A stretch of 64,000 bases of DNA from a virus, in IMG/VR virus record IMGVR_UViG_3300003690_003063, positions 48,059 to 112,058 of that record. One strand, given 5' to 3'. The notes beneath the pieces are model-generated. The model worked only from the letters and a program-made list of their open reading frames with translations. It did no database searches and had not been told where the DNA came from. Position numbers and translations under genes: made by a program. This document shows positions 2,564 to 27,679 of this stretch, piece by piece (position 1 is the first letter of the stretch; each line of letters starts with the position of its first letter).

Positions 2564-4141
2564 ATGGGGAACGCCCTTACTAAACAAGAGATTTTAAAAG
2601 AGATCGTCAAAGCGGGCAAAGATCCGATCTATTTTACGACGAATTATTGTCGTATCTCCCATCCGCAAAAAGGCCTTATACCATTTAAGGCATATCATTA
2701 TCAACAAGATCTGCTCAAAGATTTTAATGATTACCGATTCAATATAATTCTGAAGGCGCGCCAACTCGGTATTTCAACAATCACGGCAGCCTATGTTGCG
2801 TGGCTTATGCTGTTCCACCGCGATAAAAATATTCTTGTAGTGGCAACGAAGCTTCAGACCGCAACTAATCTCGTTAGAAAAGTTAAAGCAATTATTAAGC
2901 ACCTACCTCCGTGGATGCGTATAGCAGAGATTATAGTTGATAATAGAACTTCCTTTGAATTAAACAATGGGTCACAGATTAAAGGATCTTCTACTGCGGG
3001 TGACGCAGGCCGCTCTGAGGCCCTTTCATTGTTAGTCGTTGATGAGGCTGCCCATGTTGAAAAACTTTCTGATTTATGGACGGCACTTTATCCTACACTT
3101 TCCACTGGTGGTCGATGCATCGCGCTTTCAACGCCTAATGGTGTCGGCAACTGGTTTCATCAACATTGTGTTGAGGCCGAAAACGGAACCAACGATTTTC
3201 ATATGACGACACTTTTGTGGGACCAACACCCTGATCGAGATAAGAAATGGTTTGATAAAGAAACCAAAAATATGTCAAAGCGCCAAATAGCGCAGGAGCT
3301 AGAGTGCAATTTCAACGTATCCGGGGAGACAGTTATACACCCAGACGATATTCAGTGGTATCTGGAGAGAACGATCGCTCCAGAGTATCGGACAGGGTTT
3401 GATAGAAACTATTGGATTTGGAAGCAACACGAGGCCGGCAAACCCTATCTTATAGTTGCTGACGTTGCCCGCGGCGATGGAAAAGATAATAGTGCTTTCC
3501 ACATCTTGGAGTTAGCCACAATGGAAGTGGTGGCTGAATATGTGGGTAAACCCACCCCAGACGATTTCGCTGATATTTTATATAATGTGGCAAAAGAGTA
3601 CGGTGATCCCATGTTGGTGATAGAAAACAACAACATAGGCTATGCAGTACTTAAAAAACTATCAGATAAAGGGTATCCTAACTTATATCACTCAACAAAA
3701 GGAGATCATAGCTATGTAGATCCTGTGTCGGCGCAATGGCAATCGAATGTTATTCCAGGGTTTACTACTTCTTCTAAAACGCGGCCTCTTATCGTGGCGA
3801 AGATGGAAGAGTTTATGAGAAACAAACTAATTAAGATTAACTCGAATAGGTTACTTTCTGAAATGAAAACGTTTATTTGGCACCACGGTCGACCACAGGC
3901 TATGAGAAGCTATAATGATGATTTGGTTATGTCGTTTGCTATTGGATGTTGGGTAAGAGATACGGTGATTGTTGAGAGCCAGAAAAATATGGAATATAAT
4001 AAGCAATTTTTATCCTCCATTTCAACCACCAAGACAGCTATCTCGACTACTATCCCGGGAATGCGCGATCATAGAACATCAACCGATATCAAACAAGCAT
4101 CTGAGTTTGTGGAACAGTATATGGCGCTAATAAAAGGTTAA
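2564..4141 (+). CDS. terL: Terminase large subunit (T4 gp17-like)
   Basis: 525 residues. It is the packaging motor: an ATPase that translocates DNA into the prohead and a nuclease that cuts concatemers. The ATPase domain has a Walker A at 64-72 (KARQLGIST), Walker B at 156-161 (LLVVDE) and a coupling motif at 187-190 (ALST). The nuclease domain shows the RNase H-fold acids: D300 in LIVADVARGD, E354 in MLVIEN and D452/D453 in YNDDLVMSF. All expected motifs are intact and the length is close to the T4 family. It is followed three bases later by the portal gene. Confidence 0.95.
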   Translation: MGNALTKQEILKEIVKAGKDPIYFTTNYCRISHPQKGLIPFKAYHYQQDLLKDFNDYRFNIILKARQLGISTITAAYVAWLMLFHRDKNILVVATKLQTATNLVRKVKAIIKHLPPWMRIAEIIVDNRTSFELNNGSQIKGSSTAGDAGRSEALSLLVVDEAAHVEKLSDLWTALYPTLSTGGRCIALSTPNGVGNWFHQHCVEAENGTNDFHMTTLLWDQHPDRDKKWFDKETKNMSKRQIAQELECNFNVSGETVIHPDDIQWYLERTIAPEYRTGFDRNYWIWKQHEAGKPYLIVADVARGDGKDNSAFHILELATMEVVAEYVGKPTPDDFADILYNVAKEYGDPMLVIENNNIGYAVLKKLSDKGYPNLYHSTKGDHSYVDPVSAQWQSNVIPGFTTSSKTRPLIVAKMEEFMRNKLIKINSNRLLSEMKTFIWHHGRPQAMRSYNDDLVMSFAIGCWVRDTVIVESQKNMEYNKQFLSSISTTKTAISTTIPGMRDHRTSTDIKQASEFVEQYMALIKG

Positions 4142-22600: not shown

Positions 22601-25600
22601 ATGTCAGTTAAAAACTACCGATTTGTATCACCTGGAGTCTTTATCAATGAAATTGATAACTCCCAGATGCCCGCGTCGCCGGCGGGAATAGGCCCAGTCA
22701 TCATCGGCCGCGCCGCCAAGGGTCCGGCTCTTAGGCCCACCACTGTTAGCTCTTTTTCTGAGTTTATTAGAATTTTTGGGAACCCCGCTGCTGGCGCTAG
22801 CGGCGATGACGTATGGCGAGAGGGGTCAAGCACCCAAGCGCCTACTTATGGTGCGTATGCTGCTCAGGCTTATCTTCGTAATAGTTCCCCCTTAACTTTT
22901 ATCCGCCTCCTTGGCGTCGAAACCACCGATGGAACGGTGTCCGGCGAAGGCGAAGCTGGCTGGAAGGCCGACAATGCTTATGGCCTTTTTATCTTTGAAT
23001 CAGGGTCGGGCGCGGTGCACACCACAGCATCAGGGTCAGTGACCGGTGCCTTAGCGGCCATTTTTTATACCAATGATAACGCTTCTCCGTCGATCACGGG
23101 AAGTTCGGTTTGTTATGTCCCAGATTTGAGCGCCTGGTCCCCGACCGCGCTCGACGGCCCCCTCCCCTACGGAGGCACTGTGGGCACCGCTTCAACTGAT
23201 CCCCTTTCGAACATCATCGGACGCGCTGGATTTCAGTCGGTGCTTTGGACGAATTTAGCCTCAAATAATTATCAGTTCAAGATGATTATGAGTGGCGCAT
23301 ACGCCGATAACCAACACATTACGGCTTCGTTTAACTTTGATGTCAACAGCTCCAAGTATATTCGCAAGGTCTTTAATACCAACCCACAGCTTATGAATGC
23401 CGCAATTACGGATGCGAGCAATCGCCAAAACTATTTCTTGGGCGAGACGTTTGATCGGTTCCTTAAGGCGAATATTACGCCTGCGCAGGGTATCACGTGG
23501 GCCGCCATCGCGAAGATTTATAATACGGGGTCTTATGGCTCCGGATCTGTTTATAATGACAGCGCCCAAAGTGCCCAGACCCCATGGGTTGTTGGATGTG
23601 ATTTGGGCGATAACCGGATTCCGAGACTCCTGAAGCTCCACGCTCGTGGCCAAATGGGCGATTGGACCAATCGAAACATTAAGATCTCCGTCCAGGATGT
23701 TAAACAATCTACTAATGAATCTACTGATTATGGTACCTTCTCAGTGGTGGTTCGTAAACTCAGTGATTCTGATAATGTTGTGGTTGTATTAGAACAGTTT
23801 AATGATTGTAACTTAAACCCGGAGTCGTTGAATTATGTCTGCCGCAAGATTGGTGACAAGTATCTTAGCTGGCGAGAAGATGAACGACGATATCAAGAGG
23901 TTGGAGATTATGACAACCGCTCCGACTTTATTCGCGTCGAAGTCGCCGGCGATGTAGACGGCGCCGTAATGAACGCTATGTACCTTCCCTTCGGATTTGA
24001 AGGCATCATTAAGTACAAGGATGACACTGGGGCCAGCGTAATTTATGGCTGCGGCGAAGGTGGCGCCGTCGCGTCGACCAATTCTCCGGCCGGCAATTGG
24101 GCCACAGGAAGTGAAGCCCATATAGCGGGACAGTACCCACCCGACAATTTCTTCGTCCCCGGCGCACTCGGAGGCATGGCTACTACCGGCAGTGTCTTTG
24201 TTGTTAGTGGCTCCCGAATGACCGCTTCTGTTTTGTTCCCCGCACCTGAACTGCGCGTGAACGCTTCTGCTGGCGGCCTAGGGGAGTTAACGGATGCATA
24301 TTTTGGATTCCAAACCACGAGAACTACGGCGGGCACTGTTTATGATGCTTCGACGATTGACCTTCTGCGCCCCCGCGGCGCTCTTGTTGCTAACATGTTT
24401 GCTGGCGTTACGGGCAGTGTGAACCGTTCTGTACAGTTCACCTTGGACGATATATCTGGTAGTCTGGGAACGTGGATTTCCGGTTCCCGCGCCGAGTCCG
24501 GCGCCACGGTCGCCGGCACATCGCTTAGTGCGATGGACGGTGCCATCAGCGGTGTTCTGGACGCAGGTTTCGATCGATTTACCATTCCTATGTTTGGTGG
24601 CTTTGATGGTCTTAACATTGATGAGATGAATCCCTTCAGAAATAACGTGATGGGACAAATATCGAGTATTACTGACCAAAATAGCTATCAGTATAACTCA
24701 ATTCGGCGCGCCATTGACTCGACGTCTGATCCCGAAGTTGTTCAGATGAACCTGCTCTCAATGCCCGCGCTCACGCACGAAGGTTTGACAACGAACATGA
24801 TTCGAGTATGCGAAGATCGCGCTGATTCTTTGGCCGTTATTGACCTTCCTGATGGGTTTACTCCACGAGCTGAATCCACCGTTTCCGCGCGGAATAATAC
24901 AGCTAGTACGATTAGGCAGGCAATTGCGAATCTTCGGGCTCGGGGACTCAACTCTTCGTATGCTTGTACGTTCTATCCGTGGGTTCGTGCGCGAGACACC
25001 ATTAGCGGGCAACTCTTATGGCTACCACCTTCTGTTGCGGCTATTGGAACTTTCTCAAGTTCGCAGCGCAAGACGCAGGTTTGGTTTGCCCCCGCTGGTT
25101 TCAACCGCGGCGGCCTCACTGAGGGCGCAGCTGGAATTCCAGTCGTAGATGTGGCCCATAGGTTGCGTCGGAAGGATCGTGACGATCTTTACGCCGCGAA
25201 TATTAATCCCATCGCGAAGTTCCCCGCAGAAGGCATTGTAATCTTCGGTCAGAAGACCCTTCAGGTTACTCCCTCTGCTTTGGACCGGATTAACGTACGT
25301 CGTCTTATGCTTTTCATCAAGAAGCGCATTTCTCAGATGGCCTCTACCATTCTGTTTGATCCCAATGTGGCGACCACCTGGGCACGCTTCACTTCGATGG
25401 TAGACCCCTTCTTGGCAGACGTGAAGACCAATTTTGGTCTAACTGAGTACCGGGTGGTTTTGGATGAGACGACAACGACGGCCGACTTAATTGATAGAAA
25501 TATCTTGTATGCCAAGATTTTCTTGAAGCCGACCCGTGCTATTGAATATATTGCGATTGACTTCAATATCACTAGAACCGGAGCATCTTTCGATGATTAA
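22601..25600 (+). CDS. 18: Contractile tail sheath protein (T4 gp18-like)
   Basis: 999 residues. The N-terminus SPGVFINEIDNSQMPASPAG followed by GPVIIGRAAKGPALRP and the C-terminal third (ARGLNSSYACTFYPWVRARD, NINPIAKFPAEGIVIFGQKT, RLMLFIKKRISQMASTILFD) are the conserved sheath core. The end, IEYIAIDFNITRTGASF, is also family-typical. Residues 100-700 are larger and more variable than in T4 gp18 (659 aa), probably surface-exposed insertions. The codon bias is high and it has its own late-motif leader, as expected for an abundant virion protein. Confidence 0.92.
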   Translation: MSVKNYRFVSPGVFINEIDNSQMPASPAGIGPVIIGRAAKGPALRPTTVSSFSEFIRIFGNPAAGASGDDVWREGSSTQAPTYGAYAAQAYLRNSSPLTFIRLLGVETTDGTVSGEGEAGWKADNAYGLFIFESGSGAVHTTASGSVTGALAAIFYTNDNASPSITGSSVCYVPDLSAWSPTALDGPLPYGGTVGTASTDPLSNIIGRAGFQSVLWTNLASNNYQFKMIMSGAYADNQHITASFNFDVNSSKYIRKVFNTNPQLMNAAITDASNRQNYFLGETFDRFLKANITPAQGITWAAIAKIYNTGSYGSGSVYNDSAQSAQTPWVVGCDLGDNRIPRLLKLHARGQMGDWTNRNIKISVQDVKQSTNESTDYGTFSVVVRKLSDSDNVVVVLEQFNDCNLNPESLNYVCRKIGDKYLSWREDERRYQEVGDYDNRSDFIRVEVAGDVDGAVMNAMYLPFGFEGIIKYKDDTGASVIYGCGEGGAVASTNSPAGNWATGSEAHIAGQYPPDNFFVPGALGGMATTGSVFVVSGSRMTASVLFPAPELRVNASAGGLGELTDAYFGFQTTRTTAGTVYDASTIDLLRPRGALVANMFAGVTGSVNRSVQFTLDDISGSLGTWISGSRAESGATVAGTSLSAMDGAISGVLDAGFDRFTIPMFGGFDGLNIDEMNPFRNNVMGQISSITDQNSYQYNSIRRAIDSTSDPEVVQMNLLSMPALTHEGLTTNMIRVCEDRADSLAVIDLPDGFTPRAESTVSARNNTASTIRQAIANLRARGLNSSYACTFYPWVRARDTISGQLLWLPPSVAAIGTFSSSQRKTQVWFAPAGFNRGGLTEGAAGIPVVDVAHRLRRKDRDDLYAANINPIAKFPAEGIVIFGQKTLQVTPSALDRINVRRLMLFIKKRISQMASTILFDPNVATTWARFTSMVDPFLADVKTNFGLTEYRVVLDETTTTADLIDRNILYAKIFLKPTRAIEYIAIDFNITRTGASFDD

Positions 25601-25665: not shown

Positions 25666-26232
25666 ATGCCATTTTGGACAAGCGCTTTATCGGAACCGAA
25701 AAGACAACATAGATTTATCTTGAGGTTGCCCAACCTAATCTCGCAAGACGAGGAACATACGTATGCTGAGTACCTGGCAAAGACGTTTACAAAGCCCTCC
25801 TACTCGATTACTAGCACCGAACACAAGTTTCTTGGAAACACGTATTACTACCCTGGCACCGTGGCATGGGGAGATTGCGCGGCCTCGATTGTTAACTCGT
25901 TGACGCCCGATGGAAATAAGCTTTTATACGATGCCCTCTCAAAATCTGGATATCTTAAGCCAGATCAACAGTTGGATGCCTTGATTGAAGGAAATGTTGG
26001 GACAGTTAATAAGGCTAGCGCCCTCGGCGCGCTGGGACAGGTAGAGATTGACGAGCTCACCGGTACAGGAGAAGTTGCCGGGCGCTGGAAGTTACAAAAT
26101 GCTTTTATCCTGGATGCTAAATTCGGCGATCTCGATTATTCCGGCGATGAATTACTTAATATTGATATGACTTTCAAGTATGATTGGGCTACATATGAAT
26201 CTTTTACTGTGGTAACTGATCCCACGGAATAG
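25666..26232 (+). CDS. 19: Tail tube protein (T4 gp19-like)
   Basis: 188 residues, close to T4 gp19 (163). The start MPFWTSALSEPKRQHRFILR, the strand PSYSITSTEHKFLGNTYYYP, then GTVAWGDCAASIVN and the end ILDAKFGDLDYSGDELLNID with MTFKYDWATY are the tube-protein pattern. Hexameric rings of this protein form the rigid inner tube. It follows the sheath gene, as in T4. Confidence 0.92.
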   Translation: MPFWTSALSEPKRQHRFILRLPNLISQDEEHTYAEYLAKTFTKPSYSITSTEHKFLGNTYYYPGTVAWGDCAASIVNSLTPDGNKLLYDALSKSGYLKPDQQLDALIEGNVGTVNKASALGALGQVEIDELTGTGEVAGRWKLQNAFILDAKFGDLDYSGDELLNIDMTFKYDWATYESFTVVTDPTE

Positions 26233-26256: not shown

Positions 26257-27123
26257 ATGGCAAGAAGAAACTCAGAACGACTACAACCTCACCACGAACC
26301 AAATAGCGACGAATCACCTCCCCCTCCTGCAGTTAACCCCTCCGAAGGAGGGAACGTCTTTTCCTTTGTAACACCTACAGAATTTGTAGAGCTTCCTAGT
26401 AAAGGCGCTCACTATAATGAGGACCATCCCCTACGCGGCGCAGATACTATAGAAATCCGCCACATGACTGCCAAAGAAGAGGATATTTTAACTTCGGAAG
26501 CACTTATACGCAAGGGTCTCGCTCTTGATCGACTGTTACAGGCCGTCATAATGGACAAATCAATAAATGTGAATGATCTCCTGGTAGGAGATAAAAATGC
26601 TATCCTTATTGCCTGTCGAAAGACGGGGTATGGTTCGAGTTATGAAACCACAGTGGTATGCCCCACTTGTATGACAAGCGCAGAGTCTGTTCTTGATTTG
26701 GATGATCTCGTCATCAAGGAATCCAAGAACTTACCAGAAAATGTGAGCGAGAATGCGAATGGTAACTATACTATTCGTTTTGAAGATATTGATCTTAATC
26801 TAGAAGTGCGTCTTTTAAGAGGTTCCGATGAAAAGCGCGTGGCCCAGTTACGGGACAACCGTAAAAAGCGCAAGCTTCCGTCAGCAAATATTACGGATCA
26901 GCTAGTTGCCATAATCGTGTCTATTAATGGTATGACAGAAGCCGCTATTATTAAACAATTCGTGGAACGCGTGCCCGCCATCCTTTCACGACAGATCAGG
27001 ACAATTTATGACGAACTAACTCCAGATTTGGATTTAAGTTTTGAGTTTGAATGTGATGAATGTAATTATGTGGGGAAAGTAGGTATGCCGTTGACGGCAG
27101 ACTTTTTTTGGCCTCAATCATAA
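26257..27123 (+). CDS. 26: Baseplate hub assembly protein (T4 gp26-like)
   Basis: 288 residues. After a Pro-rich N-terminus the family pattern appears: VELPSKGAHYNEDHPLRG, IEIRHMTAKEEDILTSEALI, LLVGDKNAILIACRKTGYGS. A zinc ribbon is formed by CPTC (135-138) and CDEC (266-269). This matches the gp26/T4 baseplate-hub family, which builds the central hub. Its last codons contain a T7 run (27103-27109), and a 65-codon open frame without a start codon continues in another frame, suggesting a frameshifted longer product. Confidence 0.85.
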   Translation: MARRNSERLQPHHEPNSDESPPPPAVNPSEGGNVFSFVTPTEFVELPSKGAHYNEDHPLRGADTIEIRHMTAKEEDILTSEALIRKGLALDRLLQAVIMDKSINVNDLLVGDKNAILIACRKTGYGSSYETTVVCPTCMTSAESVLDLDDLVIKESKNLPENVSENANGNYTIRFEDIDLNLEVRLLRGSDEKRVAQLRDNRKKRKLPSANITDQLVAIIVSINGMTEAAIIKQFVERVPAILSRQIRTIYDELTPDLDLSFEFECDECNYVGKVGMPLTADFFWPQS

Positions 27124-27307
27124 ATACCAAGAACTAGTTTACGAAGAGTTTTTTATTCTAAAACACTATGGTGGGTGGTCATTTTTTGAAGTCTATAACT
27201 TACCGGTCCAATTACGGCGCTGGTTTCTTAATCGACTCTCCGCTGAGTACGAAAAACAGAATAAGGCCATGGAAGAAGAGACATCTAAGAGCAAGCAACG
27301 GAGGTAA
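27110..27307 (+). CDS. gp26 frameshift extension (gp51-like helper)
   Basis: From GGC at 27110 a 65-codon frame reads GLNHKYQELVYEEFFILKHY then GGWSFFEVYNLPVQLRRWFL and a charged tail ending KQRR. This resembles small hub-assembly helper proteins encoded after gp26 in T4-like phages. No ATG, GTG or TTG lies in this frame between the TGA just upstream and the hydrophobic core; the only ATG is near its end. A +1 or -2 slip on the seven Ts would fuse it to gp26. The homology to gp51 is tentative; the lack of a start codon is directly seen. Confidence 0.65.
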   Translation, partial: GLNHKYQELVYEEFFILKHYGGWSFFEVYNLPVQLRRWFLNRLSAEYEKQNKAMEEETSKSKQRR

Positions 27308-27358: not shown

Positions 27359-27679
27359 ATGGTTTCCGACACATTAGTAATTAATTTAAATGATCCTCTT
27401 TTAAAAGAGATAAAGGTCTATACCCAATTTCGAAACCAGGTTAATAATTTACTTCTAGATTTATATTACGCTGGGGTTGAGTTGCCGGTTTCTATCCGCG
27501 GCACCCAGAGCCAAGTGGAAACCTTTTTTAATGCTTTGCGAAAAGAAAAAAATTATATGGATAGCTATATGAAGTATGGGCTTGATGATTCCGTAACCCT
27601 TCGTAACCGACATAAACTAGATAGGTCGGTACACGATTTTGAGAGGGAGACGGGTCTTAAGTGGCCATTTAAAAATTAG
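27359..27679 (+). CDS. Hypothetical tail-assembly-region protein
   Basis: 106 residues, mainly helical and charged. It begins VSDTLVINLNDPLLKEIKVY and has SMK-type regions DSYMKYGLDDSVTLRNRHKL and DFERETGLKWPFKN near the end. It lies between the hub gene and the tape measure, where tail-assembly chaperones are usually found, but I do not recognise the family. The ATG at 27359 has a poor ribosome-binding site. Confidence 0.5.
   Translation: MVSDTLVINLNDPLLKEIKVYTQFRNQVNNLLLDLYYAGVELPVSIRGTQSQVETFFNALRKEKNYMDSYMKYGLDDSVTLRNRHKLDRSVHDFERETGLKWPFKN

Follow-up and report, generated by a model that had tools for sequence, protein, structure and literature searches.

The window analyzed in this study is a stretch of 64,000 nucleotides and belongs to a virus record of 112,058 bp. 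It contains a gp26-like gene which is located between the genes for the tail tube protein and a probable tail tape measure protein (Table 1). The same gene order is found in Flavobacterium phage immuto and in SP-15, and in both of these relatives a tape measure gene is annotated at the corresponding place. For the ORF of 106 aa in front of the tape measure gene no PHROG match was obtained, its only hit, DUF6176 (E=0.027), falling short of the cut-off. Further upstream (window positions 22601-25600) a tail sheath protein of 999 aa is encoded, which is far above the usual size. Sheath domain matches are confined to its last third (about residues 690-997), leaving some 690 N-terminal residues as an extra part.

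Table 1. Features of the gp26-like locus (positions refer to the window).
Feature	Position	Strand	Remarks
Tail tube protein	25666..26232	+	PHROG 4542 tail tube, E=5.5e-18
gp26-like gene	26257..27123	+	zero-frame product 288 aa; predicted short tail assembly chaperone (TAC-N)
5′ hairpin TGCCG-TTGA-CGGCA	27086..27099	+	3′ end 3 nt before T run
TGA stop in ORF2 frame	27092..27094	+	in hairpin loop; closes ORF2 frame upstream of shift site
T7 run	27103..27109	+	exactly 7 T; preceded by GAC (27100-27102)
Predicted P-site slip of tRNA-Phe	TTT 27106-27108 to TTT 27107-27109	+	basis: TT[T/C]TTTT conserved in all relatives
Putative +1 shift site TTT_TGG_C	27106..27112	+	A-site codon TGG, next new-frame codon GGC
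ORF2, 65 codons, start-less, begins GGC	27110..27307	+	predicted C-terminal extension of long isoform; TAA 27305-27307
Zero-frame stop TAA of gp26-like gene	27121-27123	+	read from sequence
ORF of 106 aa, no assigned function, between ORF2 and tape measure gene	27359..27679	+	
Probable tail tape measure protein, 874 aa	27693..30317	+	PHROG 1272 (weak, E=0.0016); size, position

Read directly from the sequence, the gp26-like gene ends with GAC TTT TTT TGG CCT CAA TCA TAA, and ORF2 continues in the +1 frame relative to it, so that a conceptual fusion of both would comprise 349 aa. The TGA which closes the ORF2 frame lies 18 nt before the first ORF2 codon, and the sole ATG, GTG or TTG of ORF2 is codon 54, past the conserved core. 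A preliminary description of this DNA had already pointed to the T7 run, the start-less 65-codon frame behind it and the TGA in front of it, and the window sequence bears out each of these observations.

The homology of the zero-frame product to the T4 gp26 family is evident at the level of sequence, as it matches the Pfam family T4_baseplate (PF12322; E=3.8e-13, 50.1 bits at a cut-off of 24.5, residues 46-285 of 288) and the baseplate hub family PHROG 150 (E=7.8e-16). AF2 folding was applied to a T4-like gp51 and to the short form, for which a confident model was obtained (pLDDT 86). Its fold matches in BFVD were T4-like hub proteins, the best named one being the SP-15 hub (E 1e-17). Against solved structures the fold of the short form yielded nothing significant (HK97 tail assembly chaperone 2ob9: prob 0.25, E 1.8), and a sequence search of solved structures found no real relative of gp26 or gp51.

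A search of IMG/VR for gp26-like relatives returned 580 stretches encoding one, of which the best 80 (46-66% protein identity) were fetched; the 57 distinct sequences among them constitute family F1. Searches against plasmids and, at the DNA level, against phage records gave no match. Aligning homologous gp26 regions had been proposed as a check, and all 80 fetched relatives (best 80 of 580) indeed keep the T run at the same offset as well as an ORF2 in the same +1 frame. The T run follows the pattern TT[T/C]TTTT across F1, the complete site being TTTTTTTGGC in 51/57, TTCTTTTGGC in 4/57 and TTTTTTTACC in 2/57 sequences. The median omega of ORF2 in F1 is 0.066, its differences are distributed over the three codon positions as 5229/2285/14666, i.e., with an excess at the third, and the two alternative frames over ORF2 contain stops in 55 and 56 of the 57 sequences. 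Judged from these patterns, ORF2 is under strong purifying selection. Homopolymer runs are prone to sequencing error, and the T run is such an error-prone place, for which reason a pseudogene or a sequencing or assembly indel producing a false frame had been considered. However, 80 contigs that stem from different samples retain the site, as do cultured phage genomes, and the low omega of ORF2 is likewise at odds with this explanation. The independent contigs with the same site exclude an indel as the cause, sequencing error was rejected on these grounds, chance conservation is excluded as well, and the probability of this alternative as a whole is negligible.

The codons of the site itself are also conserved. 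Among 50 conserved columns of the gp26-like gene in F1 the three lowest synonymous variabilities belong to F284, P286 and F283, with the fourth-lowest column being far more variable. F284 is encoded by TTT and P286 by CCT in 57/57 sequences, and F283 by TTT in 53/57, compared with 75% TTT at the other Phe codons of gp26, while FF dipeptides elsewhere in the same loci are encoded by TTTTTT in only 31% of cases. Part of the P286 codon conservation is accounted for by the Gly-Leu codons of the shifted frame, which are themselves conserved and overlap this codon. Taken from the preliminary description, the idea of a programmed shift at the T run out of the gp26-like frame is strongly supported by this conservation; the gp51-like character that had been ascribed to the extension is connected to it only via cyanophages (see below).

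In a second family (F2, 59 distinct sequences), that of Flavobacterium phage immuto, the +1 extension is kept as well, at the sites TTTCTTTGGC (28 sequences), TTTTTTTGGC (27), TTTCTATGGC (3) and TTTCTTTACC (1). The shift-site forms listed are accordingly TTTTTTTGGC/TTCTTTTGGC for F1 and TTTCTTTGGC/TTTTTTTGGC for F2, and the A-site codon is TGG or TAC. These variants bear on the direction of the shift. Ribosomes slipping by −2 at the T run, as in Mu, would enter the same frame, and on T7 a TTT codon can re-pair two bases back. At TTCTTTTGG (4/57 in F1), however, tRNA-Phe would come to lie on TCT, which makes such re-pairing impossible or poor, and the same pairing argument predicts poor re-pairing at TTTCTTTGG in relatives. 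A +1 re-pairing of the P-site tRNA is possible at both (TTT to TTT or TTC; CTT to TTT). Because TTCTTTTGG and TTTCTTTGG re-pair after a +1 but only poorly after a −2 shift, and because CUU_U and UUU_U are prfB sites, the direction of the shift reads as +1. The −2 shift was rejected on the TTCTTTTGG members and is very improbable. Hence, of the frame originally given as +1 (equivalently −2), the frame holds and the −2 mechanism does not. Bacterial prfB genes shift by +1 at CUU_U and, in a minority, at UUU_U (PMC5009743). A shift codon of this type is present at the F1 and F2 sites. The stop codon which prfB has in the A site is absent there, its place being taken by TGG (or TAC), and UGG is neither a stop nor known as rare here. 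By eye no Shine-Dalgarno-like stimulator was seen at prfB spacing, the upstream region being a hairpin without a G-rich stretch. The classical −1 heptamer arrangement (X_XXY_YYZ with a −1 extension) was not found either, the extension lying in +1 in all F1 and F2 members.

The hairpin in front of the T run was assessed by comparing folding energies with those of synonymous-codon shuffles, as counting pairs in one register understates it (some members pair in a shifted register). For 44 distinct F1 sequences the 24 nt before the run have a mean MFE of −6.2 vs −3.0 in the shuffles (z −1.79), with three control segments ranging from z −0.10 to −0.17. Within the 26 nt before the run an MFE of −4 or lower is reached in 51/57 F1 members, and the hairpin is kept in the TTCTTTTGG members. 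By this measure the 5′ hairpin of F1 is under selection. No structure above the synonymous shuffles was seen downstream of the F1 site (z −0.1 to −0.3), and the 5′ effect in F2 is weak (z about −0.5).

A selected hairpin before a T run would also fit a shift taking place in transcription, with RNA polymerase omitting one U (or adding two) at T7 and ordinary translation of the altered transcript yielding the fusion. Omission of one base is caused in the IS630 element of Roseiflexus by a nascent stem-loop directly 5′ of T5C5, and the 10 nt between the 3′ end of the hairpin (27099) and the end of the run (27109) correspond to about the length of the RNA:DNA hybrid given for Roseiflexus (PMC5009743). 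Moreover, the full T7 is present in 51/57 F1 members plus the two with TTTTTTTACC. Yet TTCTTTT together with the hairpin is kept in 4/57 F1 sequences, half of the immuto family has TTTCTTTGGC, and slippage at TTCTTTTGG or TTTCTTTGG would require an rC:dA mismatch, which has been called inviable (PMC5009743). As the same ORF2 is furthermore reached via a −1 ribosomal signal in cyanophages, hairpin-stimulated transcriptional slippage appears unlikely.

These cyanophage relatives (F3, 57 distinct sequences) carry the extension in the −1 frame, and in 57/57 of them T TTT TTC is located one codon before the gp26 stop. A stem-loop follows a few nt 3′ of it (mean −13.2 vs −7.3, z −2.2), and a 5′ hairpin is lacking (z +0.6 vs synonymous shuffles). 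A slippery heptamer followed by a downstream stem-loop is the textbook −1 arrangement. The contrast between a 5′ hairpin with a +1 extension in F1 and a 3′ stem-loop with a −1 extension in F3 supports both readings. In S-PM2 (NC_006820, 150471-151363; L117:472-1364) and at the loci L124-L203, gp26 is accompanied by a tiny annotated gp51, and from the sequence both appear to be parts of a single gene that a −1 frameshift connects. The cyanophage gp51 has been described as being without the first ~200 aa (Sullivan et al., 2010; PMC3037559), a shortness which recoding explains.

The cyanophages also connect the extension with T4. PF12322 is matched by T4 gp26 (208 aa) as well as by T4 gp51 (249 aa), and the two proteins also match one another (P 99.4). 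When the two cyanophage frames are joined conceptually, the resulting fusion can be aligned to the whole length of T4 gp51, junction included (P 99.3, E 2e-20, 240 columns), and to T4 gp26 as far as the vicinity of the shift site (P 98.7). An alignment running through the junction was likewise obtained between this cyanophage fusion and the fusion of the window and immuto families (F1+F2; P 97.1, E 8e-11, 286 columns), F1 and F3 fusions giving P 96.4. For the extension alone, P was 99 between F1 and F2, 68 between F2 and F3 and 54 between F1 and F3, the last pair scoring 21.0 vs a permuted maximum of 19.6. The F3 extension matches the C-terminus of T4 gp51 with P 98.4, which none of 100 permutations reached. 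A direct comparison of window ORF2 with this C-terminus (residues about 197-249) gave a prob of 0.1, with 90/100 permuted controls scoring as high; the homology between window ORF2 and gp51 therefore rests on the cyanophage bridge. ORF2 also showed a hit to DUF6760 (PF20546) with 21.5 bits (E 2.5e-4), below the 27-bit cut-off, and a suggestive profile-profile match (P 66-76; reached by 0/100 permutations). At the actinobacterial loci L294 and L297-L317 DUF6760 is encoded behind a Zn-ribbon protein and in the −1 frame relative to it. A GTGA/ATGA overlap and a near-invariant CGCCTGGGGGAATC[G/A]TGACG are present there, with CTG in place of ATG/GTG in L303 and L307. These loci look like contractile injection system operons, and those upstream proteins that were tested had no PF12322 match.

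The +1 extension is further found in the cultured phages immuto and Microcystis phage Mel-JY01, in a more divergent form at the same place in Bacillus SP-15, Streptococcus GXN1 and Listeria LIS04, and in MAG contigs of diverse labels. In the relatives' records examined, ORF2 is missing, truncated or a separate hypothetical gene. The Mel-JY01 gene with its +1 extension (PP395634, L083:3890-4970; TTT TTT TGG CCT AAG TAA), for example, is annotated as two hypothetical proteins. On NHDW01000006, a 305,838-bp contig labelled Methylococcaceae, the gp26-like phage locus occurs near both ends (L094/L095); this contig is probably a whole phage genome with a long repeat that was binned with a bacterium. 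A split arrangement is seen at about 3700-3900 in LR756511 (L088), a 595-kb uncultured phage, where the gp26-like gene has a longer tail and the ORF2-like gene lies in the −1 frame with an ATG of its own overlapping the gp26 stop region.

Such a split version would fit with ORF2 being a separate gene that is translated from a non-canonical start or by coupling or reinitiation near the gp26 stop. A start within the first 7 codons of the short gp51 in 36/57 cyanophage sequences (none near the beginning in 21/57) and the GTGA/ATGA overlap of DUF6760 in actinobacterial injection systems point in the same direction. Window ORF2, however, offers no start before codon 54, and in 41/57 F1 relatives there is no start codon from the upstream stop through ORF2 codon 7, the ORF2 frame of the other 16/57 being open in front of the site and containing a potential start there. 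A separate gene would also explain neither why the shift site is conserved at synonymous positions nor why the proteins can be aligned across the junction, and its probability is accordingly only slight.

It is therefore highly probable that +1 ribosomal frameshifting yields a short and a long isoform of a tail assembly chaperone. The chaperone reading draws on the position of the gene between tail tube and tape measure, which is the usual place of tail assembly chaperones. We infer that the shift does occur and that its efficiency is low: most ribosomes would follow the gp26 frame to the TAA at 27121 and produce the 288-aa short form. In a minority, peptidyl-tRNA-Phe would occupy UUU (27106-27108) in the P site during a presumed pause with UGG awaiting in the A site, slip forward by one base onto UUU 27107-27109 and resume reading at GGC, so that the 349-aa long form (...TADFF-GLNHKYQEL...RRWF...) would result. 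The hairpin 5′ of the run may re-form behind the ribosome and thereby favour the forward step. The lambda G and GT products share a region that binds the tape measure protein, and it is the T part that binds the tube protein (PMC5009743). If the window proteins act analogously, their shared region would cover the tape measure protein, and tail tube subunits would be recruited by the additional segment of the long form. T4 gp26 and gp51 are listed as hub assembly chaperones, with gp51 being absent from the particle (PMC3004832, Table 2). The preliminary description had envisaged a new use of the shift strategy, which was not borne out, as the predicted products resemble short and long tail assembly chaperones, the classical G/GT use.

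A 2016 review describes G-T frameshifting as a conserved trait of long-tailed phages, with T4 as the exception (PMC5009743). T4-like phage genes have since been identified as tail assembly chaperones (Vladimirov et al., 2022, cited in PMC12846349). As far as this citation goes, both the two-gene solution of T4 and the occurrence of poly-T −1 signals among T4-like phages seem to have been published before. A link between T4 gp26/gp51 and tail chaperones was consequently dropped as a new finding, and we count a two-isoform chaperone in T4-like phages as known and the cyanophage −1 signal as probably known. No report was found in the literature that describes UUU/CUU_UGG_C as a +1 site preceded by a hairpin under selection, or that covers its breadth. 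To this extent the forward direction of the shift, its UUU/CUU_UGG_C site and the hairpin on the 5′ side are new, and a +1 slip at a fixed T run is probably used by a large, predominantly marine group of tailed phages. We consider it reasonably probable that these sites represent a distinct class of bacterial +1 recoding (UUU/CUU_UGG_C, without A-site stop and Shine-Dalgarno stimulator, driven by a 5′ hairpin), which is widespread in environmental phages of the T4 superfamily and whose direction was switched within one chaperone family: +1 with a 5′ hairpin, −1 with a 3′ stem-loop, or two paralogous T4 genes without recoding. One need for two isoforms would then be met by a +1 shift, a −1 shift, overlapping split genes or two paralogous genes, a natural series that could serve as a test bed for the evolution and change of direction of recoding signals. 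If confirmed, UUU_UGG_C with a 5′ hairpin would be a simple +1 signal of a kind that is poorly represented among the known ones and that is missed by annotation.

Among known systems, lambda G/GT (TAC-N/TAC-NC; Xu et al., 2004, cited in PMC5009743) shares with the window gene the position between tail tube and tape measure, a short product alongside a rarer long one, a frameshift near the 3′ end and a small start-less extension domain. It differs in its −1 shift and 3′ structure, compared with +1 and a 5′ hairpin in the window, and the window protein belongs, unlike lambda G/GT, to T4_baseplate (PF12322). A tail gene of Halorubrum virus HSTV-2, whose shift was called "very likely +1" (PMC5009743), occupies the tail chaperone position of a myovirus; this archaeal virus is likened here by shift direction and gene position alone. 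Bacterial prfB (RF2), with CUU_UGA_C, has the same P-site slip on CUU_U or UUU_U, and the immuto site CTT_TGG_C (CUU_UGG_C as read in this family) equals the CTT_TGA_C of prfB with a Trp codon for the stop. However, prfB has a stop where the phages have the sense codon UGG and a Shine-Dalgarno-like stimulator 3 nt upstream that the phages are missing, and in the phages, unlike in prfB, the zero-frame product would itself be kept. In T4, both gp26 and gp51 belong to PF12322 like the N-terminal part of the window gene, with gp26 being collinear with the short form and gp51 with the long form (compared via the cyanophage fusion), but these are two paralogous genes, whereas the window has one gene with a predicted shift. 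The gp26/short gp51 pair of the cyanophages S-PM2 and P-SSM5 has the same arrangement and a related extension, and differs in the −1 frame, the T TTT TTC site, the downstream stem-loop and its annotation as two genes.
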